IMG/VR virus record: IMGVR_UViG_3300010885_044795
Coordinates: 1 to 52,692 of that record
From: a virus
DNA: 52,692 nucleotides
Reading direction: 5' to 3' (one strand)
The translations under genes were made by a program, and so were the position numbers. Under the pieces are notes generated by a model. The model saw only the letters and a list, made by a program, of their open reading frames with translations, was not told the origin of the DNA and ran no database searches. This document shows positions 13,001 through 47,953 of this stretch, one piece after another (the first letter of the stretch is position 1; each line of letters opens with the position of its first letter).

Positions 13001-16000
13001 GTAGTATCAGGATCATGGAAATTAATAAATTGTGCGGCACCACTTGCCATATTTGGAATAAGATTTTTACTTAATAAATCACCGTTAATAAGATACCAGT
13101 TACTGCTTTTAAATTGTGCAGTACCTGGTATAAAATTTTGTGCAGCATAATACTGATTCTTGAATAGAATAATATCGCCTTTATAATAATCAGTATAAGC
13201 AACCCACTGTGGAATTTCACTTACGTTTACAAAGAAACCAGGCGCATAAAGACTGCCATTCCAATCATTTGTTTTTGCGCCATCAAGACGTAATCGGAAT
13301 TGACGACTGCCAACTTGCTCATCATAAAGAATATCATTGAACACAGTATTGTTATCAAGTATAAGTGTATGTTCATACTGAATGATTGCAAGGTCTATAA
13401 GATGCACACCTTTTTGTGCGTTCTTGAGTTCAAGTTGGAACAAATTATCTCTGCGATATACACGATAATCGCTGCCAGTAAGTGTAACATTATCACTGTT
13501 AATAACTTTAGTATAATTGTTTGTGTTTGATAGAGTATCAACAACACCAAAGGTGCTTTCAAATCTGATATTTGTGCCAGCAGGTGTAAGAGAGATAATA
13601 GTATCATCGCCCCATTGCTGTTGATTCCAGAATAAAAATTCTTTAGCTGCTAGAACCCAGTCGCTTTTAGTAGTCTTATCGCCTAAAAATTCTTCAAATA
13701 CAAAACCCTGTGATTGTAGATAACGACCATAACTTACAAGAAAATCTACTACTTGTTGCTTTGTATTAAAAATACTGCCATAAGGATAGCTATAAATGTT
13801 ATCGCTGCTATCTGTATAAATGATAGCACGTTCATTGCCCACACTTATAGTATAATTGTTATTGCTCACACGACTTGGAATAGTCAAGAAGTAAGGGCGT
13901 TCACGATCAAATCCACGAACTTGATAACCATTTACAACTTTCTGCACAATTACTGCGCTATAAACAGCACGAGCAACAGGCGCACTCTTGGTTACTTTAA
14001 CAGTGTAGTTTTCTTGTGGAATAATAACACTGCTGTTAGTGCTTTGTGGACTTACTTGGTCAGCAACAATAGTAAGATAACTCTTGTCAGTAAAAGAACC
14101 CATCTTATAAACAAGATTGAATGTGCTGTTTTCTGCTACATTGATCCAGTTCTCTATAATATCAAGATTGTTATTTGTAAGATAATCACGTAACCATACA
14201 TTGTAACCAGGTATAAAGTCACTATCACCAGTTGCACTGAAATCAAACTGACGATTATTATGCTTTTTATTAATGAACTGATTTAATAATGTATTATAAG
14301 TTAGGTCACGAGTGTTATACTTAAGCGCAGTCCACTCTGCTGGTTTTGCAAGACACCATGCCATCATAACAGCAAAAGGATAATCTACACTTCGACGCCA
14401 TGCAGTTTCAGCAGGACTTTGGTCACCTACTACCCAGTTTTGTGCAGCATAGTTTGCATCATAGTTACGCAATACCGAAAAGTTTGGATTCAATAAATTA
14501 CCATGTTCATCAACAGGAATAATGCTTGTAAGACCTGGTCTTGCATAACGACTATTATAGTAAGCATCATTTGGATTACCATTATAAACATAACCTGCTT
14601 CAAGATCGCTCCACAGAACGCCGTTTTCACTTGTATAAGGTGCTGGTCCATAGCGATTTGTCCACCATGTTGGACGTAAGGTAAAACCTAACATTTCCCA
14701 TGGTTTTGTGTGAGGATGATCGGTATCATAAAAATACTTGTAGATACCACGCCAGTAACCAGGTACTGGCTTACCAAATAATTTGTCTATGCCTGTTGCA
14801 TAGTTAAAAGTAAATGGATCACCTGTAACAGTTGAATTTGTAAAGATATCAACATTATTGGTATGTGCCCAACGTAAGTATGATGGTGCAAGTAATTGTG
14901 TCCACTCATCAATTGTATAGTTAGTAACACGAAAAGCACCTGGCACAACGCTACTTAAATCAACATCGCTGTTTTCACTATATGTTGTAGTGATATTATT
15001 ATAAACACGTTTTTCAAACTCAAGTAGAATATTATCACGATAATCATTAAAACCTTTTGTAAAGCTGCCATCATGACCAATTATGCCAAGCGTTGGCGTA
15101 ACATAGGTATTGTCTGTAAGTATTTCAGGTTTAAACTTCGGATACATACCAAGTTTAGTTGGGGTTGACGGAATGTTACAACCACGAGTGCTGTTATACT
15201 CATATACTTCAATCTTGTCGTTACGAGCAATTGTAACACTATCACTTATAGTAATTGTGCGATTACCAATGGTATAATCAATATTCTTTAAAAGTAGCAC
15301 ACTGTTAAGATAAACTAGCAGTGAACGATAGCCTTTTGTATCATCTGCAAAATCTTGAGTAAGATTATAACGACGATATGTTGTATTTGCAACTGTATAG
15401 CTATTTTTTATATAATTGGTTCCAAAACCAATCATATCAGTATAATAGAATGGCTGGCCAATATTTGCTACTTTACTGAACTCTTGTAGAACCAAATCTA
15501 AACTTTCACGATAGTTTGTTGGATTTGGAAATTCGGTGCTACTTATATAATTAAGCAATTGATTTTTGAAGATGTTATAGCTATCACTAGCATAACGAAT
15601 AAACTGCAGTGGGTCTACATCATGGTCAGCAAATAGCAGTGAAGCTGGTCGCATACTTGCACTATGTTGTAGAAGTTTACCACCAACATAGTTATAGTTC
15701 AAATCTCGGAAGTTATTTGCGCCAGCAGGTTCACCAACAAGGTCTAATAAATTATTTCCAATTTCAATAAGGTGATTACGAACTTGCCCAAGCGTAATAG
15801 TTGTAAATTCTGTATTCTCACTATTGTTAGTAAGATTACGTGGCATAGTATATGTTTCTTTATATGCAGCACTTGTGCCATAAATTTTTATAAAGACACG
15901 ATCATCTACATTCAAATCTTGGTTAAAAACAACCACACTCGTAATACTGCTTGTTTTGAGTGTATAAGTTGTATTTGATTGCAGCTTACCATTAACATAA

Positions 16001-31877: not shown

Positions 31878-32891
31878 ATGTCAAACCTGTTCAAAAAAGC
31901 TGCGGTTTTTACCGACCTTCACCTTGGTTATAAGCAAAATAGCCAGTTATTTTTAAACGATTGTGATCGATATATGGATTGGTTCTTGAATCTTGTCAAG
32001 ACCGAAGAGTGTGACACCCTGTTATTTCTCGGAGATTTCCATGATACACGCAATAGTCTTAATATTAACACGATGGACTATAGTCTACGCATTCTGGATC
32101 GCCTTAATAATCTTGGGCTTCGTATTCTATTCATACCTGGCAACCATGACCTTTATCACAAAGACCGCAGAACAGTAACCTCTATCCGTTATATTGAAAA
32201 GTTTAAAAATATTGAATTGGTTATGGACCAACATACCGAAGGCGATGTTACTTTTGTGCCATGGTTAATTGGCGAAGAACACAAGAATATGCGCAAGATC
32301 AAATCACGTTATGTGATGGGTCACTTTGAATTACCGCAATTTATGATGAACGCCATGGTAGAAATGCCTGACCATGGTGGACTTAAAGGCGAGGAGTTTG
32401 ACAATGTTGGAACGGTTTTTACAGGACATTTTCATAAACGGCAGCGTCGTGGCAACATTCATTATATTGGCAATGCCTTTCCTCATAATTATGCTGATGC
32501 TTGGGACGATGCTCGTGGTGCAATGATTCTCACTTGGGGAGCGGAACCAGTATATCATGATTGGACTGATGCTCCACGCTATCGTGTGTTGACGCTTTCA
32601 CAACTTATCGACGAAGCCGATGTGCACTTGAACAATAATACATATGCACGAGTAAACATAGATATTAACATTTCGTATGAAGAAGCAACCTTTATTAAAG
32701 AAGAAATGGTTAAAACATTTGGTGTTCGTGAATTAAGTCTTATTCAACAGCGTGGTGAAGTGTTACGTGAAGATACGCTTGGTGATGTTAAGTTTGAAAG
32801 TGTAGATCAAATTGTGTTAAATCAGATACAAAATCTAGACACACAACACTATGATACCAAGTTGTTGATGGAAATTTATAACAATTTGTAA
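31878..32891 (+). CDS. gp47: Recombination exonuclease subunit gp47 (Mre11/SbcD-like)
   Basis: 337 residues, as in T4 gp47 (339). Calcineurin-type phosphoesterase motifs are all visible: TDLHLGYKQN (D13, H15), LLFLGDFHDTRNS, LFIPGNHDLYHKD, then GHFELPQF and FTGHFHKRQRR. With gp46 it forms the Mre11/Rad50-like complex that resects double-strand ends for recombination-dependent replication and degrades host DNA. gp46 follows after one intervening gene. Translation is probably leaderless: the ATG is six bases from a -10 box and no ribosome site is present. Confidence 0.95.
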   Translation: MSNLFKKAAVFTDLHLGYKQNSQLFLNDCDRYMDWFLNLVKTEECDTLLFLGDFHDTRNSLNINTMDYSLRILDRLNNLGLRILFIPGNHDLYHKDRRTVTSIRYIEKFKNIELVMDQHTEGDVTFVPWLIGEEHKNMRKIKSRYVMGHFELPQFMMNAMVEMPDHGGLKGEEFDNVGTVFTGHFHKRQRRGNIHYIGNAFPHNYADAWDDARGAMILTWGAEPVYHDWTDAPRYRVLTLSQLIDEADVHLNNNTYARVNIDINISYEEATFIKEEMVKTFGVRELSLIQQRGEVLREDTLGDVKFESVDQIVLNQIQNLDTQHYDTKLLMEIYNNL

Positions 32892-32894
32892 GTC

Positions 32895-32900
32895 TATAAG
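32895..32900 (+). promoter_or_regulatory. -10 box of a possible leaderless promoter
   Basis: TATAAG ends seven bases before the ATG at 32908, in the 16-base gap after gp47. No convincing -35 is seen. It is listed because the spacing repeats that of the neighbouring genes. Confidence 0.4.
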
Positions 32901-32907
32901 TATCAAC

Positions 32908-33708
32908 ATGCTAGATGATTTGCGTTTAAATTTACCAGAATGTAATGCAATTAATTTGCAAACACTTGGTATAGATTGGCAAAATTTTAATTTAGCTTGT
33001 GTAAAATATTATAATAAGTGGTCGCATCTGTCAACGAATGTTAATATCAAGACATTTGTTCCTACACAATCGCCAGCAGAACAGGTAAAAAACTTTTATA
33101 CTGGTTATACATTTTATGAAGATAGCAGTGATATATTTTCAAGAGTAAACGAAATCTTTGCTCAAACACCACTGACTGATGAAATGATGCCGCCAGAACA
33201 ATCTTATAACTGGTATAACAGTGATATTATTGATGAATTTGCAATCATTAAAACTGTTATTTCTCGAATAGAAACCTACATAAACGTGGAATTTGGTCAT
33301 GTAAAACTGCGTTATGTAGGTCCACGTGATGTAGAAACCATACACACAGACTATGGTTCTTATCGTTATCACTTACCTATAGTAACAAATGATAGCGTAT
33401 TTTTTGTAAGTGGCAATAAGTTATTTCATATGCTTAATAGTGATAAACTTTATATTTTAGATACTAACACACCACACACTATTGTAAATGCAGCTGGTGT
33501 TCAAGGTAGATTGCATCTTATTGCTACAAATAAAACTACAGAATATAAATTTACTAATGCAGATTTACGAAAAACTGCAGTAAATTATGCAAATCATGCG
33601 CAACAAGCACTTGAAAAACTATCGCCCGCAGACCTTGAACTTAACAGTGAAGTATATAAAAAAACAAAAATTCAACTTTTAAAATTAAAAAAATTGAATA
33701 ATCAGTAA
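32908..33708 (+). CDS. Aspartyl/asparaginyl hydroxylase-like 2OG-Fe(II) oxygenase
   Basis: 266 residues. The C-terminal half carries an iron-binding facial triad: H146-T-D148 in IHTDYGSYRYHLPI, then a distal histidine in NTPHTIVNAAG (H190) and an arginine in GRLHLIATN (R201) suited to bind 2-oxoglutarate. The HxDYGxxRYHLPI ... HxxxN arrangement is that of the aspartyl/asparaginyl beta-hydroxylase family. The N-terminal ~110 residues are unassigned. Similar oxygenases are frequent in marine T4-like phages, mostly with unknown substrates. It sits between the two subunits of the recombination nuclease, which suggests a DNA- or protein-modifying role but does not prove one. Confidence 0.75.
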   Translation: MLDDLRLNLPECNAINLQTLGIDWQNFNLACVKYYNKWSHLSTNVNIKTFVPTQSPAEQVKNFYTGYTFYEDSSDIFSRVNEIFAQTPLTDEMMPPEQSYNWYNSDIIDEFAIIKTVISRIETYINVEFGHVKLRYVGPRDVETIHTDYGSYRYHLPIVTNDSVFFVSGNKLFHMLNSDKLYILDTNTPHTIVNAAGVQGRLHLIATNKTTEYKFTNADLRKTAVNYANHAQQALEKLSPADLELNSEVYKKTKIQLLKLKKLNNQ

Positions 33709-33722
33709 TTTTGTAGTATAGT
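33694..33722 (+). promoter_or_regulatory. Sigma70-type leaderless promoter for gp46
   Basis: TTGAAT (33694-33699), 17-base spacer, TATAGT (33717-33722), then six bases to the ATG at 33729. The -35 lies within the end of the preceding gene. No Shine-Dalgarno is present. Confidence 0.6.
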
Positions 33723-33728
33723 AGTATC

Positions 33729-35840
33729 ATGTTGAAACTTAAAAGTCTTACCGCTAAAAACTTTATGAGCGTGGGTAATGCAACCCAGGCTGTACACTTT
33801 GACCGTAGTGACCTAACTCTTGTACTCGGAGAGAACTTGGATTTAGGAGGTGATGATACTGGAGCACGTAATGGAACAGGTAAGACAACCATTATAAATG
33901 CTTTGAGTTATGGTCTCTATGGTCAAGCCCTTACTAACATCAAAAAAGATAATCTTATCAACAAAACCAATGCCAAAAACATGGTTGTTACGGTTGATTT
34001 TGAAGTTGGTGGGCGAGATTATCGTATTGAACGTGGTCGTAAACCTACGTTTACCAAGTTGTATATTGATGGCAATGAACAAACTGATTATGTAGATGAT
34101 AGTCAAGGCGACAGTCGTGAAACACAGAACGATATTGAACGATTACTTGGTATGACACATGATATGTTCAAGCATGTTGTGGCTCTTAACACCTATACTG
34201 AACCATTCTTGGCTATGAGAGCCAATGACCAACGTCAAATCATTGAACAACTACTTGGTGTTACTATCTTAAGTGAAAAAGCTGAACAGCTTAAAAGTCA
34301 GATTAAAAATACAAAAGATAACATACAGGAAGAAAAAATACGTATTAAAGCGCAGCAAGATGCTAACTTGCGTATTGCTGAACAAATTGAAAATCTTAAG
34401 AAACGTCAGAAGCTGTGGCAGTCAAAGCATGATGAAGATTGTAACAAAATTGAACGCAATCTTATATCGTTAAGTGAAATCAATATTGATGCAGAAATTG
34501 CTAATCATCGGTTACAAGAACGTTATATTGCATTTAAGAAACTTGAAGATCAGTTAAAAGGCATTGTAACTCGTCAGAAACTGTGGGAAAAGAAACAACT
34601 TGATGATTGTGACGCAATAAAATTACAAATCGGTGAACTTTCTACTATTGACATTGATAGTGAAATTGCTATTCATCGTGATATTGCTGAATATGATGCT
34701 AAAGTAAAACGACGTGATGAAGCAAAACGTTGGATTGCAAGTATTGATGCTGCCAATGCTAAAGAAGAAAAAACACAAGCCAAGTTAAAAAAAGAGATCG
34801 AAGACCTAAAAAATCACAAATGTTATGCTTGTGGTAGCGAACTACATGATGATAATCAAGCAGATATTTTACAAGCAAAAGAAACAGCATTGCGTGAAAG
34901 CGCAATGCAAATCATTGCTAATGAAGGTCAGCGCATGGACCATCATGATACTCTTGCAGAGATCGGTGAATTAATCGCACCACCAAAACCATATTACAAA
35001 ACACTTGAAGCAGCATTAAACCATCGCAATACTCTTGAAAATATGAATACTAGTCTTGAGAGTCGTATGCTTGAAACTAGTCCGTTTGCTGAACAGATTA
35101 TGGAACTTGCTACAGAATTAGGCAATAAAGAGTATATTGATGAGAGCCAAATTGGTAAATTTCACTATGATACTATAGAAGATGCTCTTAATCATCGTAA
35201 CACGCTAGAGCAATTAGCAAGCGCACTGCTTGACAAACAGGGTGAAAGCGATCCATATGCTGACCAGATCAGTGATATGGAAACAAATGCTGTTATTGAA
35301 ATTACATGGGATACAATTAATAACCTTACACAAATACAAGAGCATCAAGAGTTTCTGCTTAAAATGCTTGTAAGCAAAGATAGTTTTGTGCGTAAACGCA
35401 TTATTGATCAAAACCTTGCTTATCTTAATAGTCGCCTTGGAAGCTACTTAAGTGCTATTGGATTGCCGCATGAAGTTAGGTTTATCAATGACTTAAGTGT
35501 AGAAATCACTGAACTTGGTCGTGATCTTGACTTTGATAATCTATCTCGTGGTGAACGCAATCGTCTTATTCTTTCGCTTTCATGGGCTTTTCGTGATGTG
35601 TGGGAAAACCTATACCAACATATCAATTTGTTGTTTATCGACGAATTGATTGATAGTGGTATGGATGCCAGTGGCGTTGAAAATAGTTTGGCTATTCTTA
35701 AGCGCATGAACCGTGAACGTGGCAAAAGTATCTTCCTTGTATCACATCGTGAGGAATTAAGTGGTCGTGTTAACAATATCCTGACAGTTACCAAAGAAAA
35801 TGGTTTCACCAGTTATGGCAATGATTTAACCACAGCTTAA
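33729..35840 (+). CDS. gp46: Recombination ATPase subunit gp46 (Rad50/SbcC-like)
   Basis: 703 residues (T4 gp46: 560). Walker A is GARNGTGKTT (residues 45-54). A zinc hook KCYACGS with C365 and C368 lies in the middle of a long coiled coil. The ABC signature LSRGERNRLILSLSWAFRD and Walker B LLFIDELIDSG lie near residues 600-640. Partner of gp47 in DNA end resection. The coiled coil contains internal duplications: RQKLW..K..DDC...I at about 226-261 and again at 282-317, and Y.T.E.ALNHRNTLE in two copies after the hook. These account for most of the extra length. The gene probably has a leaderless mRNA. Confidence 0.95.
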   Translation: MLKLKSLTAKNFMSVGNATQAVHFDRSDLTLVLGENLDLGGDDTGARNGTGKTTIINALSYGLYGQALTNIKKDNLINKTNAKNMVVTVDFEVGGRDYRIERGRKPTFTKLYIDGNEQTDYVDDSQGDSRETQNDIERLLGMTHDMFKHVVALNTYTEPFLAMRANDQRQIIEQLLGVTILSEKAEQLKSQIKNTKDNIQEEKIRIKAQQDANLRIAEQIENLKKRQKLWQSKHDEDCNKIERNLISLSEINIDAEIANHRLQERYIAFKKLEDQLKGIVTRQKLWEKKQLDDCDAIKLQIGELSTIDIDSEIAIHRDIAEYDAKVKRRDEAKRWIASIDAANAKEEKTQAKLKKEIEDLKNHKCYACGSELHDDNQADILQAKETALRESAMQIIANEGQRMDHHDTLAEIGELIAPPKPYYKTLEAALNHRNTLENMNTSLESRMLETSPFAEQIMELATELGNKEYIDESQIGKFHYDTIEDALNHRNTLEQLASALLDKQGESDPYADQISDMETNAVIEITWDTINNLTQIQEHQEFLLKMLVSKDSFVRKRIIDQNLAYLNSRLGSYLSAIGLPHEVRFINDLSVEITELGRDLDFDNLSRGERNRLILSLSWAFRDVWENLYQHINLLFIDELIDSGMDASGVENSLAILKRMNRERGKSIFLVSHREELSGRVNNILTVTKENGFTSYGNDLTTA

Positions 35841-35860: not shown

Positions 35861-36850
35861 ATGTCTTTTTGCAAATTTATAGTTGAATCTAATAAACCAA
35901 TTAGTGCTGAACTTGTAAACAAGAACAAATCTGTAACTATCGCAAATATAACTCAAGAGTTTGAATTATTAGATGGTTGGCAAATTATCTTAATCAACGT
36001 AAAAGATTTTATTCCGTTTACTATACATGATATCTGTATTGATGGTAAAAGCATAGAAGAATTGCTTTTAACAAGTTGGGTACAAACTTATAAAAATGTG
36101 CCGCTTCAACCTTTCAATAAGTTTTTGTATAAAATGAGTGGAACATGGAAAATTGTTCTGCACAGTGATTTAAGTGTTTTGCAAGAACGCTGCTATAACT
36201 CAATTACTTCAAGTGACTATGGCACAAACTTATTTGCAAATTATGATATATTTGTTGATCTTGGGCATGATTTACAAAATCCTGCAAAATTTAATAGTGA
36301 TATCAATAATTTTTTTAGTAGACCACAAGGTATACATTTTTATAAAAAAACCCCTAAACTAGAAATTCCATTCTTGCATTTGGATATAGCTGTTCCCACA
36401 GAAGAACTTTTATATGAGATACAAAAATTAGATATGCATAATTTGCATAAAGTTGAAAGTTGGAGTTATCTTAAAGTTTATAGAAATGAATGTCCAGAAT
36501 TTATTGTGCAATGGTTAAGCAGCATTGGTATACATCAATTTTCACAAATCACAGTATTTTGTCTTGAACCATATGGACATCTAGATTTGCATCGTGATGA
36601 TTCGGTTGGTGCAGATGAATTGAATAGAATTCATATTAATCTTGGTAAAGATGAACATAATCAATTTAAATTTTCTTGTGCTGGTTTAGTTCCAAAAGGT
36701 GCAAATTTTACTAAAGTATATAAATTTGCGCACACAGTTTATAACGAAAGTGCAGAACCAAGATATAGTTTTAATATCGTGCTTGATAAAAACAGTGAGA
36801 CTAATGCTTGGATAAGAAGCAAATCAATACAACAGGCACTATTAATTTAA
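35861..36850 (+). CDS. Putative 2OG-Fe(II) oxygenase with unknown N-terminal domain
   Basis: 329 residues. The first ~220 show no motif I recognise. The C-terminal ~90 carry EPYGHLDLHRDD (H244-R-D246), RIHINLGKD, then YKFAHTVYNESAEPRYSFNI (H291, R301). The HxD...H...R order and the HTVxNxSxExR context fit the aspartyl hydroxylase-type 2OG-Fe(II) fold. It follows gp46 by 20 bases, with GGAG 13 bases before the ATG, and is followed with no gap by a radical SAM gene. The pairing suggests a joint modification pathway (inference). Confidence 0.6.
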   Translation: MSFCKFIVESNKPISAELVNKNKSVTIANITQEFELLDGWQIILINVKDFIPFTIHDICIDGKSIEELLLTSWVQTYKNVPLQPFNKFLYKMSGTWKIVLHSDLSVLQERCYNSITSSDYGTNLFANYDIFVDLGHDLQNPAKFNSDINNFFSRPQGIHFYKKTPKLEIPFLHLDIAVPTEELLYEIQKLDMHNLHKVESWSYLKVYRNECPEFIVQWLSSIGIHQFSQITVFCLEPYGHLDLHRDDSVGADELNRIHINLGKDEHNQFKFSCAGLVPKGANFTKVYKFAHTVYNESAEPRYSFNIVLDKNSETNAWIRSKSIQQALLI

Positions 36851-37720
36851 ATGTTTAACATATCAAACGTTAAAGTTTTACATCTTGAACCTACAAGCAA
36901 ATGTAATGCGGCATGTCCACAATGCGCACGTTATGCAGATGATGGAGTTACACTTAATCCTTATATTGAAATTCGTGATTTAACCCTTACCCAAATTATA
37001 GAAAAGTTAGATAGTAATTTTATCGCTCAATTAGATAAAATGTTTATGTGTGGAACATATGGCGATCCTGCTGCAAACAACGAAGCACTGTTAATATATG
37101 ATTGGTTTCGTCATATTAATCCAGTGATAACACTTGGAATGAATACTAATGGTAGTTTACGTAACCCACATTGGTGGTCGTTATTAGGTCAAAGATTGAA
37201 TAGACTAGAGGATTACTGTGTATTCAGTATAGATGGATTAGCGGATACTAATCACATCTATCGTCGCAATACTATCTGGTCTAAAATAATGAAGAATGCA
37301 CAATCATTTATTGAAGCTGGTGGACGTGCTCATTGGGATATGCTTGTGTTTAAACATAATGAACATCAGGTTGATGAATGCATGAGACTAGCGAAAGAAA
37401 TGGGGTTTACAGCATTTCGTGCAAAAGTAAGTAAGCGTTTTTCATATAAGCCTATTTCTGGACTAGAACCACCACAAATTTATAATCCACAGTTAAGTTA
37501 TGGTGCAGTAGATTGTCATGCTCTTAAAGAACGCAGCATCTATATGGATTATCGTGGAGAACTGTTACCATGTTGTTGGTTAGCAGCAGAAAAATATACT
37601 ATCCATGATTTTAATGATATAATAGATAACTGGACACCAACATGTGTTACTAACTGCACAGTAGTAAATGATAGTAGTAACTTTGGTAAACAGTGGTTCA
37701 GAGAAGAATATTTTGTATGA
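36851..37720 (+). CDS. Radical SAM protein with SPASM-like C-terminal cysteines
   Basis: 289 residues. The [4Fe-4S]/SAM motif is SKCNAACPQC (C18, C22, C25; CxxxCxxC), with MCGTYGDPAAN as the GGE-like element and NTNGSL strand following. Five further cysteines near the end (C222, C241, C242, C265, C269; GELLPCCW and CVTNC) resemble a SPASM/twitch domain holding an auxiliary cluster. SPASM enzymes usually modify peptides or proteins; some act on small molecules. The ATG follows the upstream stop directly. The TGA overlaps the next ATG (ATGA). No precursor peptide gene is obvious nearby. The substrate is unknown. Confidence 0.8.
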   Translation: MFNISNVKVLHLEPTSKCNAACPQCARYADDGVTLNPYIEIRDLTLTQIIEKLDSNFIAQLDKMFMCGTYGDPAANNEALLIYDWFRHINPVITLGMNTNGSLRNPHWWSLLGQRLNRLEDYCVFSIDGLADTNHIYRRNTIWSKIMKNAQSFIEAGGRAHWDMLVFKHNEHQVDECMRLAKEMGFTAFRAKVSKRFSYKPISGLEPPQIYNPQLSYGAVDCHALKERSIYMDYRGELLPCCWLAAEKYTIHDFNDIIDNWTPTCVTNCTVVNDSSNFGKQWFREEYFV

Positions 37721-38232
37721 CAAGTAAAAGCAAGAACAAAGGCAATAGTTGGGAACGTGATGTTGCCAAACACCTTACAGAATTATATGGCGAGTCTTTT
37801 ATACGTGTGCCAAACAGTGGTGCTTATATTGGTGGCGCTAATACAAAACGTAAGCAATTCTTACATGAAGGACAAGTTCGTTCATTCAAAGGCGATATCA
37901 TACCTGGCCAAAGTTTTCCAAAGTTTAACTGCGAATGTAAAAGTTATGCTGATTTTCCATTTCATCAATTGTTCAGCGGTGAGTGTAAGCAGCTTAATAT
38001 ATGGTTAGACCAATTGACAGAAGTTGCTGATGATACAGATTTTAATATTCTTATCATGAAGTTTAATCGCAAAGGCAAGTTTATTGCTATAGAATTTGAC
38101 CAATATTATGATGTTCCATTATTTGTAGAATATCATATGCTTTATCAGTATAAAGATGTTCGTTGGGCAATTATGGATTATGATCGTTTTTGGTCACTTA
38201 ATAAAGATTTTGTAGCACTTGCTTGTGCTTAA
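37717..38232 (+). CDS. PD-(D/E)XK family nuclease, resolvase-like
   Basis: 171 residues from the ATG at 37717, chosen because it overlaps the preceding TGA (ATGA) and starts a basic segment MTSKSKNKGNSWERDV. An in-frame ATG eight codons upstream is less likely. Motifs: GNSWERDV (E13), SFIRVPNSGAYIGG, FKGDIIP (D60) and NCECKSYADFPF (E73-x-K75). This E...D...ExK order is that of PD-(D/E)XK nucleases such as archaeal-type Holliday junction resolvases. A role in resolving recombination or packaging intermediates fits its place after gp46/gp47; restriction-like activity is an alternative. Confidence 0.7.
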   Translation: MTSKSKNKGNSWERDVAKHLTELYGESFIRVPNSGAYIGGANTKRKQFLHEGQVRSFKGDIIPGQSFPKFNCECKSYADFPFHQLFSGECKQLNIWLDQLTEVADDTDFNILIMKFNRKGKFIAIEFDQYYDVPLFVEYHMLYQYKDVRWAIMDYDRFWSLNKDFVALACA

Positions 38233-38381: not shown

Positions 38382-39503
38382 ATGTTAGATCCTGCAACAA
38401 TACCACACTTTGCACAGAATTTTGGTTTCTGGTTAGTTGATAACGAAATAGTTTTTAGTAAAGTTAAAAGCATATTACGTGCGCAAGAACGCAAAACACG
38501 TGACGTTCGTTATTATTTCTATGATCATATATTTGCAAGCTATGATTGGGCTATAGAACCACAGCAATCATTACAAGAACTTTATATTGCTCGTGCGAAA
38601 CAGTTACGTGAGAAATATGATTATCTTATATTGCTGTATAGTGGTGGCAGTGATAGCAGCAATGCGCTTAAAACATTCGTTAATCATGGCATTAAATTAG
38701 ATGAAGTTGCATATTGGTATACAAGTTACAACGAAGATACTAACATAACAAATCTTGAATTGCTATATGCTGCTAGTGGTATGTTAGAAAAAGTGCGTGA
38801 TGTTCATGGTATACCAGTACGCAAAATTGATGAACGACAATTTATAACTCGTTCTAATCTTAACAATGCTGATTGGGTGTTAGGCGCAGAACCGCTATTA
38901 GTTGCTGCTCAAATAAGCAAAGAACCTATGATATATGAAACAGTAGACTGGCGAAATATAGCAGAAAGCGGTAAACGTATTGGTATTATTCTTGGATTAG
39001 AAAAACCACGTATATTTTATGATAACGGTTGGCATGCGGCTTTTCTAGATGTTGCACATACATGGAATACAGAAAATCAACATATTTCACCTAAACATAT
39101 TACTCTCGAAAGTTTTTATACAAGTGGTGATGCTCCACTTATTACTATTAAACAAAGTCATGTGTTAAAAAATCATATCAGTAAAATGTATGATTTGGAT
39201 TATATAAAAACTCGGTTTGATTATACAAAGAACTTTAAACAAGATGAGTATATGAAACTTTGCAGAGACACTCTTTATCCTTACTGGGATGATAACACAT
39301 ATAGTTTAGGCAAAAGCATAAACAAACCGCCACTTACGCAAAAATATGAATGGTTGTGGAACAGCAACACAGATATAAGCAACAATTATTTGGATGGGTT
39401 GCGTTGGCTTAATAATATTGTTGATCCATATTGGTGCAATAGCGGTGATTTTTATAAAGGATTTGTGGGCGCATGGAGTCGAAGGTATAGTTTAGATGGT
39501 TGA
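38382..39503 (+). CDS. PP-loop ATP pyrophosphatase (asparagine-synthase-like)
   Basis: 373 residues. The adenylation motif YLILLYSGGSDSS (SGGSDSS at 87-93) is the PP-loop signature of N-type ATP pyrophosphatases (asparagine synthase C-domain, QueC, TilS, NAD synthase and relatives). These activate a substrate by adenylation for amidation, thiolation or ligation. The N-terminal ~80 residues precede the loop, and no glutaminase domain (Cys at position 2) is present, so it is not a complete asparagine synthetase. The C-terminal half is Tyr/Trp-rich and unassigned. It starts a four-gene operon with the Tct genes and a 2OG oxygenase and overlaps tctA by eight bases. The substrate is unknown. Confidence 0.7.
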   Translation: MLDPATIPHFAQNFGFWLVDNEIVFSKVKSILRAQERKTRDVRYYFYDHIFASYDWAIEPQQSLQELYIARAKQLREKYDYLILLYSGGSDSSNALKTFVNHGIKLDEVAYWYTSYNEDTNITNLELLYAASGMLEKVRDVHGIPVRKIDERQFITRSNLNNADWVLGAEPLLVAAQISKEPMIYETVDWRNIAESGKRIGIILGLEKPRIFYDNGWHAAFLDVAHTWNTENQHISPKHITLESFYTSGDAPLITIKQSHVLKNHISKMYDLDYIKTRFDYTKNFKQDEYMKLCRDTLYPYWDDNTYSLGKSINKPPLTQKYEWLWNSNTDISNNYLDGLRWLNNIVDPYWCNSGDFYKGFVGAWSRRYSLDG

Positions 39504-40803
39504 ACTGCTTGTGTTTTGTTTAGTTGGATGCGCATATGGGTTAGTAATTGGGTTACTACCAGGTGCTAGTATGAGTGTAGGTATGGTATTGGCTTATCCA
39601 TTGCTTATGAAATGTGCGCCGCATGATGTAATTGCTTTTTATATAAGCATGGCAACAAGTGTTCAATACTTTGGTGGTGCAAGTGCTACGCTACTTGGCA
39701 TACCAACAGAACTTACTTGTTTGCCAAGTGTCAAAGAAGGTTACGGATTAGTCAACCGTGGTAAAGTAAGCGAGGCATTAAGCAGCGGTGTTTTAAGTAG
39801 TTTTATAGGCAGTATGATTGCAATTGTGCTTACTCTTGCAATATTTTGGATAGGTAACAATTATAGTTTACTATTCAATTTTAAATTTCAACTTGCATTA
39901 TTGTTATTAACTTGTGCAATTACTGTTGCAAGTCATCGTAATATTATTACTGGAATAGCATTACTGGGTTCTGGTTACTTTCTTGGTATGGTTGGTGTGA
40001 ATCAAATAACAAGAAAACCATTTATGACCTTTGATATTCCTCAACTTGTAGGCGGCATACCACTTATTGTTGTTTTAGTATTCTTATATGGTTTACCATT
40101 GCTATTATCAATAAACTATACTAAAACAACAATTAATATAAGGGAAAAACTTAAACTTCAAGTTGTTGTGCCACTGGTTACTATAATTCGAAGCAGTATA
40201 ATTGGTTTTGTCTGTGGTTTTATTCCTATGCTTGGTATTATATTGAGCAGTAATTTAAGTTATAGTTTAACCAAATTTTTGCATCGTAGCGATTATGATC
40301 ATGGTGGCGATGTGCGTGGACTAGCAAGTAGTGATGCTGGTCATAACGCTGGATTGGTTGCTAGTTTAGTTCCACTATTTTGTTTTGGTGTGCCTATCCT
40401 AACAAGTGAGTATATTCTTTATGATATTACTACTAATCGTGGGTTAACTTATAATTTAGAATGGTTACTGCACAATTACTGGTGGATATTTGGTATTTTT
40501 GCAGTAGCAAATATATTTGGGTTTATTACAAGTTGGCCACTTGCCATACATTTAGTAAAATTTATTATAAATTACATGAAACTTTTCAAAGTTTTTGGAA
40601 TATCACTTATGTTAATATCAGTGTTATTAATAGCAACAAATTTGAATCAGTTAGGTTTTTATGTTATATTAAGTTTAATATTCTTGCCTATTGGTTATGC
40701 ACTTCGGCGGATTGATATGCTGCCATTTATTCTTGGATTTCTTATATCACAACAGTTTGATTCAACTTTAAGAATCGTTTACAATTTACATTTTGGAGGA
40801 TAA
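39496..40803 (+). CDS. tctA: TctA-like membrane permease (tripartite tricarboxylate transporter large subunit)
   Basis: 435 residues, slightly short for TctA (about 500), with roughly ten or more hydrophobic segments. Both family signatures are present: the first-half LVIGLLPGASMSVGMVLAYP, then FGGASATLLGIPTEL and EGYGLVNRGKVSEAL; the second-half CGFIPMLGIILSSNLSYSL, then ASSDAGHNAGLVASLVPLF and CFGVPILTSEY. TctA forms the inner-membrane channel that imports tricarboxylates or other carboxylates with sodium or protons, using TctC capture. It starts eight bases inside the PP-loop gene and ends two bases before the TctC-like gene. No TctB small subunit is seen. It is a strong candidate for a host-derived auxiliary metabolic gene. 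Confidence 0.85.
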   Translation: MVELLVFCLVGCAYGLVIGLLPGASMSVGMVLAYPLLMKCAPHDVIAFYISMATSVQYFGGASATLLGIPTELTCLPSVKEGYGLVNRGKVSEALSSGVLSSFIGSMIAIVLTLAIFWIGNNYSLLFNFKFQLALLLLTCAITVASHRNIITGIALLGSGYFLGMVGVNQITRKPFMTFDIPQLVGGIPLIVVLVFLYGLPLLLSINYTKTTINIREKLKLQVVVPLVTIIRSSIIGFVCGFIPMLGIILSSNLSYSLTKFLHRSDYDHGGDVRGLASSDAGHNAGLVASLVPLFCFGVPILTSEYILYDITTNRGLTYNLEWLLHNYWWIFGIFAVANIFGFITSWPLAIHLVKFIINYMKLFKVFGISLMLISVLLIATNLNQLGFYVILSLIFLPIGYALRRIDMLPFILGFLISQQFDSTLRIVYNLHFGG

Positions 40804-40804
40804 C

Positions 40805-41668
40805 ATGATTCGTAAACTATTACCATTACTATTAAGTCTTGTAACATTGCCAGCTATGGCAATGGATATTACTGTAAGCGCACCGCCAGGTGGCAATGCA
40901 GGCAGAACAGCAAATGCTATGCTTGATGTGTTACACAGTAATAATATAAGTGGTGAAGTAAAATATAACACTACTTGCGCCGTTGTAAAGAATGATATTG
41001 AAAACAATAATGCAAGCATGGTTTACCTCAATACTGCATGGGGCTTGCTTGATCCTATTTGCAGTATAAACATTGACGGTAAAAAAGTAAAAATGATTGA
41101 CCAAATCTATTATTATACGCTTGGTCTGTGCTATCGCCGTGAACGAAGTGGTCTTGGATGGGATGATTTTACAAGTAATCGCAAGAAGAACATTGCTGTA
41201 AGCATTGTTGCCGAAGCACCAAGCAAGAAAATCTTTAATAAAATGAAACTTGTTGATAATATCAATTTAGTTGTAGTAGGCAATAGTGGTAAAACTCGTG
41301 AAGTTGTGTTAGGCAATGAGTTTGATTATACAATTGTTGACGCAGATTTTGTTGCCAAGAACAGTGATAAGGTAGATTGCTTGTTTATTGGTACAGATAA
41401 AGAGCAAACACTTAACGGTAATCATTTTGCTAGTTTACCAGAAGTAATGCGCAATCGGTTTAAAACTGAACCAGATGCTAGTCTACAAGATGTTTGGGCA
41501 GTAATTGGTGTAAATCTTACACCAGAACAAGAAGCAAATGTAAAAAAAGAACTAGCAATAATTGAAGGCAATACAAAGTGGCAAGAATTTATCCACGAAT
41601 TTGGCAAAGATAAAACTAATCTTACCGAAGATAGATTTACAAAGATCACTAAAACTTTAAAGGAATAA
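40805..41668 (+). CDS. tctC: TctC-like periplasmic solute-binding protein
   Basis: 287 residues from the ATG at 40805. This start is chosen over an in-frame ATG at 40793 because GGAGGA lies just upstream and a signal peptide follows directly (MIRKLLPLLLSLVTLPAMA, cleavage after AMA). The mature N-terminus DITVSAPPGGNAGRTANAML carries the PPGG substrate-loop motif of TctC (Bug family). Later segments (NLVVVGNSGKTREVVLGNEF, FDYTIVDADF) fit the two-lobed fold but are divergent. It would capture a carboxylate in the periplasm and deliver it to the TctA-like permease directly upstream. The ligand is not predictable. The stop is two bases before the next gene. Confidence 0.7.
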   Translation: MIRKLLPLLLSLVTLPAMAMDITVSAPPGGNAGRTANAMLDVLHSNNISGEVKYNTTCAVVKNDIENNNASMVYLNTAWGLLDPICSINIDGKKVKMIDQIYYYTLGLCYRRERSGLGWDDFTSNRKKNIAVSIVAEAPSKKIFNKMKLVDNINLVVVGNSGKTREVVLGNEFDYTIVDADFVAKNSDKVDCLFIGTDKEQTLNGNHFASLPEVMRNRFKTEPDASLQDVWAVIGVNLTPEQEANVKKELAIIEGNTKWQEFIHEFGKDKTNLTEDRFTKITKTLKE

Positions 41669-42204: not shown

Positions 42205-42219
42205 AAATTAATATATACT
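42191..42219 (+). promoter_or_regulatory. Promoter candidate for the structured RNA
   Basis: TTGTTG (42191-42196), 17-base spacer, TATACT (42214-42219) straddling the end of the oxygenase gene. The predicted start is near G42226. The spacer length equals that of the other sigma70-type promoters in the window; the -35 is weak. Confidence 0.45.
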
Positions 42220-42225
42220 ATAACT

Positions 42226-42649
42226 GGCTCATTCGGCATATAGGCTCATTGGCACCATAATCCCAAATAAGAAATATATTGAAGGTTGTCAGCACCCCGA
42301 CATTGCTGTATGGATAACGTTTGGCTGACGATAGGCTAAACGATGAGGCTCTGGGAAAAAGCAACCTCAACTACTATAAGTTCGTTAGCAAGGGTTTATA
42401 GTGGGTCCGTTGGTAAAAATCTACAGGAAGTGATGGGGTACAGGCTAACCGCCCCACTTGGTTTCAAGTTCCGTTTGCTAATGTCCTTATGATAGCTCAA
42501 ATGAAGCTGTTTGGATATGGATTTCCTGCTTAAGGAAATCTATGTCCAAAATCCAGTCTAAATGAAACTATTATTAATTCTCCTAGAGAAATGAAAGAAG
42601 AAAAGAAAGTGAAGGGACGACAGTCCCTGAACAGATGCCTACGGCATCT
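42226..42649 (+). ncRNA. Large structured noncoding RNA candidate, class unknown
   Basis: A gene-free stretch of about 440 bases with much more G+C than its surroundings (45 % and 52 % in two 60-base lines counted) and dense complementarity. Stems on the plus strand: 42286-42293/42324-42331 (8 bp), 42345-42348/42365-42368, 42373-42379/42396-42402 (7 bp), 42428-42431 plus 42435-42438 with 42452-42459, and a 16-bp hairpin 42511-42526/42534-42549 with a 7-base loop and two G-U pairs. TTAGCAA in the loop of the third stem (42385-42391) is perfectly complementary to TTGCTAA at 42475-42481, predicting a pseudoknot. GGCTCATT is repeated at the 5' end (42226, 42243). It is not tmRNA (no tRNA-like ends or tag), not RNase P, and I see no group I or II core. 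The 3' end is uncertain. Confidence 0.6.
42613..42649 (-). terminator. Tandem hairpins after the gp26-like operon
   Basis: Two perfect hairpins lie just beyond the minus-strand stop: 42633-42639/42643-42649 (7 bp, loop of 3) and 42613-42618/42623-42628 (6 bp, loop of 4). The second is followed on the minus strand by a pyrimidine-rich tract (TCACTTTCTTTTC). They sit between convergent genes and may also form the 3' end of the plus-strand RNA. Confidence 0.45.
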
Positions 42650-42879
42650 TAAAAGAAAGGCAAACCTGACTTCTTGGTAGTTTCTAAATTATCCTCAACG
42701 ATCTTGTTGATAAGATTTCTCTCATTAAGACTTAACTCATGTGCTTCGCTATAAGTTAATCCACCACGCATATACCAACAAAGTTTAAGTAAATTAGATT
42801 TTATAGCATTTACATCTTTTTCATATTTTGCCACTAACTCAAGAATTTCTTCGTGTTTAAGACTTAAGATAGTGGCTCG
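42649..42879 (-). CDS. -1 frame extension: tail-assembly chaperone T-like domain
   Basis: A 76-codon open frame overlapping the end of the gp26-like gene in its -1 frame. The sequence reads SLKHEEILELVAKYEKDV, then LLKLCWYMRGGLTYSEAHEL and ends TTKKSGLPFF. A GTG at 42834 could start a 61-residue version, but it has no ribosome site, and the conserved-looking helix extends upstream of it to the slippery site. Expression by -1 frameshifting would give a fusion of about 352 residues. The LSxxER pattern and position resemble the T domains of lambda gpGT-type chaperones. T4 gp51 lies next to gp26 and could be the counterpart (inference). Confidence 0.6.
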   Translation of the reverse strand, partial: RATILSLKHEEILELVAKYEKDVNAIKSNLLKLCWYMRGGLTYSEAHELSLNERNLINKIVEDNLETTKKSGLPFF

Positions 42880-43706
42880 AAAAAATTTGCATAATCAAAA
42901 GTAATGCTTACACTATATTCTGTATTACATTCTTCACATGATATTTTTGGTTTAGGTAGTGCAACCATATCTGCATATTGTTGAAGTTTTTCTTTAACTG
43001 CACGTATTACAGAATTGTTAGCATTCTCATAAAACTCCATAATATGTTGTGGATCAACTACTACTATGCCATCTTCTGTTGTAATGCTTACTGTGCTTAA
43101 AGCAATAATATTGTTATTGGCTTCAATAATTTTTTGTAAATGCACTTCAAATTGTGCTTTGCGTGTTTCACTATCAATATTTTCATCATTGATCACCTGT
43201 AGTAATCTTTGTTCTTCAAACTGCATGATATTATTTTTAGTGCTTTGCATATAATTCAATGGTTTAAATCTTATAGTCAATCCTTCTATGGCGAGAGTAT
43301 CATCATAGTTAGGACTGCGTAATGAAGTTAATAGCCCACTTATATTATATTGATTGCGGTTTTCTGCTTTACAATGTGGACATTCACTATCAATATCCAT
43401 ATTTTCGCCGTAAGTTGCAATACGAATAGCAATAAGAATAGCATCAACATCAATAGTTGGTGTAGCCCATGCATTTAAGATTTGTGGTATGCAGCTTTGC
43501 ATTACGCTTACTACACCTTGACCATTCATAAGTGCATCAGGGGTGCGAAGCAATATTTCATCTTTGGCTGTCATTGGCATTACGCCTAATTCATTGTTTG
43601 CTGGCATTTCAATAGTATTGGGTAACCAATATTTGCCATTGCTTGGTAGTTTTAAAAATACTGCTGGTTGGCGAAAATGCTTTGTTAATGGGTTGCTTGA
43701 CATCAT
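42864..43706 (-). CDS. gp26: gp26-like baseplate hub/tail-assembly protein
   Basis: 280 residues from the ATG at 43706; a TTG ten codons upstream has no ribosome site, and a second ATG follows at 43703. Family features: AVFLKLPSNGKYWLPNTIEM, then ELGVMPMTAKDEILLRTPDA, VMQSCIPQIL, IRIATYGENMDIDSECPHC. Two CxxC pairs (C109/C112 and C257/C260) suggest a zinc-binding unit. T4 gp26 is a baseplate hub assembly protein. Here the gene is divergent from the tape-measure gene and ends with a tandem slippery site, arguing for a chaperone role in tail-tube/tape-measure assembly. Confidence 0.78.
   Translation of the reverse strand: MMSSNPLTKHFRQPAVFLKLPSNGKYWLPNTIEMPANNELGVMPMTAKDEILLRTPDALMNGQGVVSVMQSCIPQILNAWATPTIDVDAILIAIRIATYGENMDIDSECPHCKAENRNQYNISGLLTSLRSPNYDDTLAIEGLTIRFKPLNYMQSTKNNIMQFEEQRLLQVINDENIDSETRKAQFEVHLQKIIEANNNIIALSTVSITTEDGIVVVDPQHIMEFYENANNSVIRAVKEKLQQYADMVALPKPKISCEECNTEYSVSITFDYANFFEPLS
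42879..42888 (-). promoter_or_regulatory. Tandem -1 frameshift slippery site
   Basis: The minus strand reads AAATTTTTTC in phase GC-A AAT TTT TTC. It contains two canonical X XXY YYZ heptamers, A AAT TTT and T TTT TTC. Slipping -1 on either leads into the same open frame of 76 codons. The zero-frame stop follows four codons later. Confidence 0.65.
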
Positions 43707-43717
43707 AATTTTGGTTC

Positions 43718-43725
43718 CATAAATA
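43718..43725 (+). promoter_or_regulatory. T4-type late promoter candidate for the tape-measure gene
   Basis: CATAAATA, one mismatch from TATAAATA, 45 bases before the ATG at 43771, in the gap between the divergent gp26-like and tape-measure genes. Confidence 0.4.
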
Positions 43726-43770
43726 ATATTTGACAAGTTATTTACAGTTTAGAATTTTTAGGTAAAATTA

Positions 43771-46165: not shown

Positions 46166-47953
46166 ATGGGTTGGAAAAAGCATTGGCGTATCGTAAGTGA
46201 TGGTGCATATAGCCCTGTAAACGGTAGCGTAACAGACTATAGCAGCTATAACTATCTTGGTTCTCAAGCAAACGCAGCATATCGTAACTATCAAAGCATG
46301 TTACCAGATGTGTATAGTGGTCACCCTAATCGTATTGACCGTTATACTCAATATGAGAACATGGATTTAGATAGTGAAGCTAACAGTGCAATGGATATTC
46401 TAGCAGAGTTTTGCACTCAAATGAGTGAAGAAACTAAAACTCCTTTTAATATTCAGTTTAATGAAGAAGCAACTGAAAATGAAATCATGATTCTTAAAGA
46501 ACAACTTAAGTCTTGGTGCAAACTACAAGATTTTGAACAACGTATCTTTAAGATGTTCCGTAATACACTAAAATATGGCGATCAAGTATTCGTGCGTGAT
46601 CCAGAAACCTACAAGTGGTTCTGGACTGAAATGAATCGTGTAAGCAAGGTTATTGTTAACGAAAGTAAGGGCAAAGAACCTGAAATTTATTATATTCGTG
46701 ACCTAAATCCTAACTTACAAAACTCTACAATTACACGTCCACCAGGTCCAAATGACAGTTATGCCTTTGCTCCTTATATGGGTGGTAGTCGTTCTTATAC
46801 AGCAGGTGGTGAAGTATTTTCACCGAATACACGTTTTGGTGCTGGTAATAATGAGTTCCCTGTCGGTGCAGAACATATTGTTCACTTAAGTTTAACAGAA
46901 GGTTTGGATGTTTGCTGGCCGTTTGGCGTTAGTATTCTTGAAAGTATCTTTAAAGTATTCAAGCAAAAAGAATTGTTAGAAGATGCAATTCTAATCTATC
47001 GCATTAGTCGTGCACCAGAGCGCCGTATCTTTAAGATTGACGTTGGTAATATGCCAGCACACCTTGCTATGCAATTTGTTGAACGTGTTAAGAACGAAAT
47101 CAATCAACGTCGTATTCCTACACAAAGTGGTGGTGGTAGTAATCTAATGGACGCCAGTTATAATCCAATGAGCATGAACGAAGATTTCTTCTTTCCTGTA
47201 ACTGCCGAAGGTCGTGGCAGCGATGTTACTACACTAGCTGCAGGTCAAAATCTTGGTGAAATTGATGATTTGCGTTATTTCCAAAACAAGATGTATCGTT
47301 CACTTCGTATTCCAAGTAGCTATCTTCCAACTGGTCCAGAAGACAGTGACCGTGCATTTACTGATGGTAAAGTAACTACTGCTCTTATTCAAGAGCATCG
47401 TTTTAACGAATACTGCAAGAGATTACAAAAGTATATAAGTCCAAAATTTGATCTTGAGTTTAAGATGTATCTTAAGCATAAAGGTTTTAACCTTGATAAC
47501 AGTCTATTTGAATTGCGTTTCACTGAACCACAGAACTTCGCTGCTTACCGTGAAACTGAATTAAATTCAACTCGTATTACTGCATTTACACAAATAAATC
47601 AAACAGATTACCTTTCAAAACGTTTCATGTTAAAGAAATATCTTGGATTAAGTGATATGGAATTAGCTGAAAATGATAGAATGTGGCACGAAGAACGTGG
47701 CACAGATCAGCCAAAAACTGATATCCAAGGTTCTGATCTACGTAGTGTTGGAGTTACGCCTGGTGCTATAAGCACTGACCTTGAAACTGTAAGCGATATA
47801 CAAGCAGCAGAACAAGGTGGTGGATTTGGCGGACCAGGCACACCGCCTATTGGTGGTGAAGTTGGTGCTGCTGGTGTTCCAAGCCCAACAGGTGGTGCTG
47901 GTGGCGGTGCGGCAGGTGGTGCAACTGCTGGTGCTGCTCTTGGTGGTGCATAA
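46166..47953 (+). CDS. gp20: Portal vertex protein gp20
   Basis: 595 residues (T4: 524). Family sequence is clear: YRNYQSMLPDVYSGHPNRID, YENMDLDSEANSAMDILAEF, FRNTLKYGDQVFVRDPET, DVCWPFGVSILESIFKVFKQ, DAILIYRISRAPERRIFKID then VGNMPA, and YFQNKMYRSLRIPSSYLP. Twelve copies form the DNA gateway at the capsid vertex and nucleate prohead assembly. The C-terminal ~70 residues are an Ala/Gly/Pro-rich tail (GGAGGGAAGGATAGAALGGA) not found in T4. It has AAGGA upstream and a TATAAATA late promoter. Confidence 0.97.
   Translation: MGWKKHWRIVSDGAYSPVNGSVTDYSSYNYLGSQANAAYRNYQSMLPDVYSGHPNRIDRYTQYENMDLDSEANSAMDILAEFCTQMSEETKTPFNIQFNEEATENEIMILKEQLKSWCKLQDFEQRIFKMFRNTLKYGDQVFVRDPETYKWFWTEMNRVSKVIVNESKGKEPEIYYIRDLNPNLQNSTITRPPGPNDSYAFAPYMGGSRSYTAGGEVFSPNTRFGAGNNEFPVGAEHIVHLSLTEGLDVCWPFGVSILESIFKVFKQKELLEDAILIYRISRAPERRIFKIDVGNMPAHLAMQFVERVKNEINQRRIPTQSGGGSNLMDASYNPMSMNEDFFFPVTAEGRGSDVTTLAAGQNLGEIDDLRYFQNKMYRSLRIPSSYLPTGPEDSDRAFTDGKVTTALIQEHRFNEYCKRLQKYISPKFDLEFKMYLKHKGFNLDNSLFELRFTEPQNFAAYRETELNSTRITAFTQINQTDYLSKRFMLKKYLGLSDMELAENDRMWHEERGTDQPKTDIQGSDLRSVGVTPGAISTDLETVSDIQAAEQGGGFGGPGTPPIGGEVGAAGVPSPTGGAGGGAAGGATAGAALGGA

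Follow-up and report, generated by a model that had tools for sequence, protein, structure and literature searches.

A TctA-family permease and a TctC-like binding protein encoded side by side, without a detectable TctB, in a fragment of a T4-like phage

The 52,692-base IMG/VR virus record IMGVR_UViG_3300010885_044795, an incomplete phage fragment that was analysed at its full length and is called the window below, carries adjacent genes for a TctA-family permease and a TctC-like periplasmic binding protein, two of the three components of tripartite tricarboxylate transporters (TTT), and no recognisable gene for the third, TctB. They are the inner genes of a four-gene block that reads, in order, PP-loop ATPase, tctA, tctC-like and probable 2-oxoglutarate (2OG)/Fe(II) oxygenase (Table 1). 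The PP-loop gene overlaps tctA by 8 bases, the ATG of the tctC-like gene at 40805 lies one base after the tctA stop codon (40801-40803), and two bases separate the stop codon of the tctC-like gene from the start of the oxygenase-like gene. The TTG listed as a start at 40793 is unlikely for the tctC-like gene; the ATG sits behind a GGAGG ribosome-binding site. An earlier note, written from the sequence alone, had described phage DNA with adjacent TctA and TctC genes and no TctB, all of which holds, but it had missed the block with its PP-loop and oxygenase genes and had placed the tctC-like gene two bases behind tctA instead of one.

The permease belongs to the TctA family. The Pfam model PF01970 covers its residues 5-408 at 184.1 bits against a cut-off of 28.9, and an alignment of eight phage TctAs matches a 12-member profile of cellular TctAs over 422 columns (hhalign, 100%, E 8.3e-49). 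The motif G-x3-G-x2-P, taken from the TctA passages of PMC5812351 and used here in a relaxed form, is retained in both halves of the window's protein, as GCAYGLVIGLLPGAS and SSIIGFVCGFIPMLG, and in both halves of 8/8 phage and 12/12 cellular TctAs. Thus, the statement that both TctA signatures are present holds in the relaxed form, although PM stands where the second copy should read PG. A tree of 36 TctAs unites the eight phage proteins (support 100/100) and divides them into two lineages, the window's, called A, and a second one; the other 28 rows are bacterial, drawn from 12 plasmid loci, 8 of 80 genome-contig loci and 8 best matches, with archaeal and TctB-less cellular TctAs left out. Long branches lead to the phage groups and five phage rows have an unusual composition, and the phage proteins are a clade apart from bacterial TctAs only; within this comparison they do stand as a separate one. 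The two sets also differ at the C terminus, where an extension with a hydrophobic stretch is present in 12/12 cellular TctAs and absent from 8/8 phage TctAs, all of which stop about 50-60 residues short of the twelve cellular proteins and lack the last hydrophobic stretch. A crude hydropathy count gives 8-11 helices for the phage and 7-11 for the cellular TctAs, and is too coarse to separate them or to set them against the roughly 12 membrane helices expected of a TctA.

The binding protein is a remote member of its family. It begins with a signal peptide of about 19 residues (1-19, with an A-M-A cleavage site, judged by eye) and carries a PPGG loop whose PGG is invariant in 9/9 phage relatives, so that both features named in the earlier note are real. 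Neither PF03401 (TctC) nor any other Pfam, NCBIfam or PHROG family matches it convincingly. By profile-profile comparison, nine phage binding proteins match eleven cellular TctCs from plasmid loci over 255 columns (hhalign, 97.7%, E 1.6e-12), and each phage lineage does so alone (E 3.9e-8 and 7.5e-11); as controls, a reversed TctC profile gave E 0.28 and ten column-shuffled profiles gave E 0.24-0.80. In the structural comparison of a model of the protein, the first 11 rows are all Bug/TctC proteins (Z 11.3-12.8), with the next binding proteins at 9.9 or below. The matches include Bug27, BugD, 2dvz, TphC, TctC 4x9t, TBP, MatC and 5oei, of which TphC, TBP, MatC and 2dvz are presumably members of the Bug/TctC family. 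Both names, TctA and TctC, are right at the family level, the latter through profile-profile and fold comparison rather than sequence families. Four cysteines are invariant in all nine aligned phage binding proteins, across two lineages that are only 14-16% identical, whereas the eleven cellular TctCs have no conserved cysteine column; this pattern makes two periplasmic disulfides in the phage protein likely. A search for the four-cysteine protein in 398 genomes of one phylum gave weak matches in 8 of them, all within the first ~55 profile positions, one of which (L119) is by eye an ordinary TctC.

TctB was sought both with Pfam and with a profile of our own. The Pfam model PF07331 (TctB) found nothing at E<=1 in six phage records, namely the window and five relatives, one of them 338,435 bases long. 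Our profile, built from 11 plasmid TctBs, detected TctB at 11/11 leave-one-out loci, at a twelfth comparison locus (L024, where the gene is annotated as hypothetical) and at 8/8 further genomic TctA loci, always at E<=1.2e-4; every cellular TctA locus examined (20/20) has a TctB. Applied to 1,328 reading frames from the window together with nine phage loci, the same profile reached E 0.26 at best, and a TctB hidden in a short reading frame was rejected as far as this profile can detect one. For the second phage lineage, the search covered L007 (the record with Pfam, the locus with our profile) and L017 and L018 (profile), leaving out L126 and L127, and again found no TctB. The absence claimed in the earlier note is therefore borne out for the 52,692-base fragment and, beyond it, for the records of five relatives, though these may be fragments. 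That the whole phage lacks TctB we infer from the 338,435-base relative, since the window itself is incomplete.

The block is not peculiar to the window. Lineage A comprises five distinct sequences in seven records, six of which hold the block complete; since its gene order is identical in five distinct phages, the pairing of the genes is not due to chance. In all lineage-A relatives the resolvase gene forms the left border, and the gene for a T4-type baseplate hub follows the block wherever the DNA reaches that far. With the second lineage included, each of the ten distinct phage sequences long enough to show both genes has tctA together with a binding-protein gene. That the genes are phage-borne, as first proposed, is upheld by the hub, SbcC/SbcD, resolvase and portal genes nearby and by the matching contigs, and the DNA around the transporter pair is a fragment of a T4-like phage.

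Table 1. Features of the window around the transporter genes, and records of the lineage-A relatives
Feature or record	Position in the window	Strand	Basis or remark
SbcD- and SbcC-like exonuclease subunits	31878-35840		Pfam/PHROG-level annotation of phage surroundings
Radical SAM protein	36851-37720		PF04055
PDDEXK endonuclease / RusA-like resolvase	37717-38232	+	PF24608, E 2.1e-28; phrog_244; left border of block
PP-loop (HUP-type) ATP pyrophosphatase-like protein, 373 aa, SGGSDSS	38382-39503	+	ORF, motif, model, structural matches; first gene of block
TctA-family permease, 435 aa, ATG start	39496-40803	+	PF01970, E 4.5e-54; hhalign; tree
GGAGG ribosome-binding site of tctC-like gene, within end of tctA	40795-40799	+	Sequence
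TctC/Bug-type periplasmic solute-binding protein, 287 aa	40805-41668	+	hhalign, fold comparison, alignment
Probable 2OG/Fe(II) oxygenase, 177 aa	41671-42204	+	Motif only: H87, D89, distal H154, R163
T4-type baseplate hub protein	42864-43736	-	PF12322, E 2.6e-16; phrog_150; right border of block
Portal gene	46166-47953		Phage gene near block
L001, IMG/VR 3300032225_002053			Full block, two tandem oxygenase-like genes
L002 and L004, IMG/VR 3300032334_001259 and 3300037189_011323			Identical over 17,299 bases; full block
L003, IMG/VR 3300032225_002288			Full block
L011, IMG/VR 3300006103_000114			Full block
L012, IMG/VR 3300006105_000053			Identical to L011 over 6,002 bases; ends inside PP-loop gene

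The two outer genes of the block are less readily named. Among the six aligned PP-loop proteins, the motif reads SGGSDSS in five and TGGTDSH in L017. The AlphaFold model, made from six sequences (pLDDT 74.2, pTM 0.79), yields fifty structural rows that are mainly PP-loop enzymes (Z 8.1-9.4), most of them matched over some 150 residues. Asparagine synthetase B (AsnB) and beta-lactam synthetase are matched along almost all of the chain, over as many as 281 residues, with a poor rmsd (5.7-6.6) and tied Z; AsnB itself aligns 280 residues across residues 1-362 (rmsd 5.9, Z 8.9, tied with others). By fold, AsnB-type carboxylate activation may be the closest chemistry. An Asn_synthase-type sequence profile matches only at the loop (probability 16.9%), there is no match in Pfam, NCBIfam or PHROG, and PDB sequences, tried too, did not settle the subfamily. 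In the subfamily profile sets AsnB was represented by 8 of 12 loci, but QueC by only 2 of 8 and PAPS-reductase by 1 of 8, so that the latter two comparisons are weak. The nucleophile of glutamine-dependent asparagine synthetase B is an N-terminal cysteine, at position 2; seven of eight cellular comparison proteins begin with MC, as against none of six phage PP-loop proteins. No member of the phage PP-loop family was found in the 398 genomes, with a query that does work, since it matches 8/10 phage records.

For the oxygenase-like protein, the residues H87, D89, H154 and R163 are invariant in 6/6 aligned relatives, and HxD...H...R is the pattern of 2OG-Fe(II) oxygenases. It has no Pfam match and no convincing NCBIfam or PHROG family match, and a profile search of the PDB reached prolyl 4-hydroxylase only at E 0.037, ranked below unrelated xylanase hits. 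By eye, H-x-D ... H patterns of the Asp/Asn-hydroxylase type also occur in the proteins at 32908-33708 and 35861-36850, the latter without a convincing Pfam family match; counting the gene of the block, there would be three oxygenase-like genes within 10 kb, in addition to the radical SAM gene.

The second lineage consists of five shorter contigs (L007, L017, L018, L126 and L127), in which a TctA is encoded together with a four-cysteine binding protein; the three TctAs aligned are 28-29% identical to that of the window. L017, which carries a phage tail-fibre connector gene (phrog_677), has a PP-loop gene directly upstream of tctA, in the order PP-loop, tctA, tctC-like, and L007 opens, at its contig end, with a 59-residue match to the L017 PP-loop protein just before its binding-protein gene. 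Two binding proteins are encoded around tctA in L018 and L127. At 2102-6225 of L018 and 5556-9679 of L127, a single TctA is flanked by two different proteins of the four-cysteine type, which share about 40% identity, and between these lie proteins that by eye look like ATP-grasp enzymes (no Pfam match). Judging from this arrangement, one channel may possibly be served by two binding proteins. An IscA/ErpA-type iron-sulfur protein is encoded near the second-lineage TctA in L007 (3362-3682, TIGR00049 over the cut-off) and in L017 (2974-3261, 89% identical to that of L007 over 93 residues).

Within lineage A, the genes of the block are only 37-60% identical between the window and four relatives, compared with 84-96% for the resolvase, 67-96% for the SbcC-like protein and, in two relatives, 86-93% for the portal. 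The block is not alone in changing fast, since the hub (59-63%) and the ORF at 43771 (28-36%) are divergent as well. In all four block genes the changes are most frequent at the third codon position, then the first, then the second, in 8/8 comparisons (window against L001 and L011), which indicates that the proteins are under constraint.

Elsewhere in the window, a minus-strand reading frame of 4,897 amino acids (4069-18762) adjoins baseplate and tail-type genes, and the annotated records that match a 1235-aa hub/lysozyme-type protein along part of its length, with 25-35% identity, belong to large phages (about 280-490 kb; best 20 of 60). A non-coding stretch (42213-42640), which separates the block from a small minus-strand frame, aligns in L002 and L011. 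The 659-base spacer that contains it has a mean column identity of 79% over its whole length in these three sequences. The stretch folds into a strongly structured RNA (minimum free energy -106.1 kcal/mol over 348 nt, z -3.83), with two-sided changes at 13 of 119 predicted pairs among the three sequences, and Rfam holds no family for it; it looks like a candidate for an undescribed structured phage RNA.

Genes for transporters are usually cellular, and it has to be considered whether the transporter segment is host DNA taken up in assembly. We give this explanation practically no weight, because the resolvase and hub borders recur in independent phage contigs, which rules out an assembly artefact and refutes a host origin. 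Nor has a close cellular source of the phage TctA come to light: plasmid relatives found by tblastn are only about 25-29% identical (best 40 of 608 records), and a scan of the genome-contig collection with two short peptide patterns returned no TctA relative, although patterns this short cannot exclude one. Phage reference records gave TctA matches in six cases, at 22-26% identity, several of them short contigs; these were discounted as true phage TctAs, one being a Salmonella contig and the others lacking annotation. AGRM01000002.1, the phage-collection record with the best TctA match there, is a 691,452-base contig of Salmonella enterica subsp. houtenae and appears bacterial. The TctC-like, PP-loop and oxygenase-like queries found no match in 50,697 phage records.

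We favour, with moderate confidence, the view that the two proteins form a secondary transporter, carried by a T4-like large phage, which depends on its binding protein and needs no TctB as a third component. The binding protein would be exported by the host machinery during infection and, once in the periplasm, would use its PPGG loop to capture a carboxylate-like solute and hand it to the phage TctA, which would move the solute inward with an ion gradient and would work without TctB, as archaeal TctAs appear to do. Such a TctA is not without precedent, since archaeal TctAs without TctB are described in the passages of PMC5812351 drawn on here. The PP-loop and oxygenase genes of the block suggest that import is probably coupled to intracellular modification. 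Perhaps, on weaker grounds, the co-encoded PP-loop ATPase activates the compound by carboxylate adenylation and the 2OG-Fe oxygenase oxidises it, in which case the block would be a module that imports and modifies a compound to yield a product needed by the phage. Boosted carboxylate uptake by the host, as the earlier note suggested, is one possibility; the linked PP-loop and oxygenase genes suggest a more specific purpose. A more far-reaching version, which we regard as doubtful, is a self-sufficient import-and-activation module in which a transporter of two components, without TctB and with a disulfide-bearing binding protein exclusive to phages, would import one specific carboxylate, from which the PP-loop ligase and the oxygenase would make a virus-specific metabolite or modification, the rapidly diverged versions being tuned to different compounds or hosts. 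Several observations weigh against a TctB-free transporter coupled to modification. Activity could be altered, since the second TctA repeat has PM instead of PG in four of the five lineage-A phages and PS in the remaining one, and since lineage A, unlike the second lineage, has lost the Asp that TctC carries behind its GG loop. The binding-protein model, built with AlphaFold (AF2) from only 4 sequences, is of low confidence (pLDDT 57.6, pTM 0.54), which puts the fold result partly on a weak footing, and no PDB chain matches the phage TctA profile, leaving the mechanism without a template. TctB is a poorly conserved protein, with 3 columns invariant among 11 sequences, and might escape profiles, and the records without it may be fragments, the 338,435-base one included, as the window is. 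Finally, three of the five second-lineage contigs (L018, L126 and L127) have no PP-loop gene, and a processing step is therefore not universal.

It is conceivable, if unlikely, that the phage TctA and TctC-like proteins borrow the TctB of the host, so completing an ordinary three-part transporter, and thereby increase the carboxylate uptake of the host. The lack of TctB in the phage does not exclude such borrowing, and hosts with these systems would have a TctB to offer, given its presence at all cellular TctA loci examined. However, its poor conservation makes it less likely that a foreign TctB fits the phage TctA, which belongs to a separate clade without the C-terminal extension, and the phage supplies a dedicated binding protein rather than using that of the host. 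Between the alternatives left by the earlier note, a host TctB or a two-part system, the absence of TctB from 6/6 records, the separate clade and the missing extension favour the latter. A role other than nutrition has a real though lesser chance of being correct: the compound would serve to modify nucleic acid or protein, or to protect the infected cell, and the PP-loop enzyme and oxygenases would be the key components. Indeed, the PP-loop and probable oxygenase genes are kept with the transporter in 5/5 distinct lineage-A phages, a radical SAM gene lies just upstream of the block in the window, L001 and L003, and an Asp/Arg-hydroxylase-like protein is encoded near TctA in L018 (PF05118, E 0.003, below the cut-off), with counterparts in L126 and L127. 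The four genes have also diverged strongly between phages with near-identical nucleases and portal, as host-facing functions do, but neighbouring genes diverge too, and neither fold nor profile comparison settles the PP-loop subfamily. That the proteins are TctA and TctC by descent only, the binding protein acting as a sensor or decoy and TctA being a relic or a membrane-disturbing protein, seems to us quite improbable. The changes in the second TctA repeat and the lost loop Asp would fit it, as would the orphan TctCs without a known membrane partner, which the passages of PMC5812351 at hand call common in bacteria; yet both genes persist together in every phage sequence long enough to show them, and the lineage-A changes are concentrated at third codon positions.

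If a TctB-independent transporter is indeed what these genes encode, a phage equipped with its own capture and channel subunits and with processing enzymes would import a compound of its own choice. It would provide a natural test of the purpose of TctB and of whether a binding-protein-dependent TctA works without it. The compact phage TctA-TctC pair would also be a good object for questions of TctB role and TctA structure; the role of TctB is called unknown, and no structure of TctA or TctB had been solved, as of the review (PMC5812351, passages on these subunits).

Among known systems, the pair has several partial counterparts. To our knowledge, uptake genes in phages mostly encode single binding proteins that serve host transporters. 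Such is cyanophage PstS, which serves the ABC-type phosphate transporter of the host. The likeness, as far as the accounts of PstS at hand go, is that a phage gives the infected cell a periplasmic binding protein; the difference is that the phage described here encodes the channel as well as the capture protein, and that these belong to a secondary type of transporter. Among the papers listed by searches of the open-licence PMC literature, none describes a phage TctA-TctC pair, and the nearest case is a SUP05 viral contig. The part of PMC4164917 that treats it reported in 2014 a TctA domain on this virus-labelled contig, with a role called unknown, which a passage of the review PMC6359870 also mentions; there it is a domain match only, with no TctC or gene block described in that part. 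Archaeal TctA homologues, in the relevant passages of PMC5812351, resemble the phage proteins in lacking TctB and are reported with fewer predicted helices than bacterial ones (7-11 against 9-12), but they are reported without TctC as well, whereas the phages keep a dedicated binding protein; TctA with TctC and without TctB is not described in those passages. With the TTT systems proper, TctCBA of Salmonella and BctCBA of Bordetella, the pair shares a TctA-family permease, a periplasmic binding protein of the TctC/Bug fold and the adjacency of the genes. It differs in being phage-encoded, without TctB and linked to PP-loop and oxygenase-like genes; in gene order, A then C in the phages, as opposed to the cellular loci compared, in which B lies immediately or almost immediately upstream of A, and C either precedes B or is located elsewhere; and in its proteins, a binding protein that lies below Pfam detection and has four conserved cysteines, and a TctA of about 435 residues without the C-terminal extension. 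The phage pair, though composed of TTT-type proteins, falls short of a TTT system if that term is kept strictly for three-part transporters.

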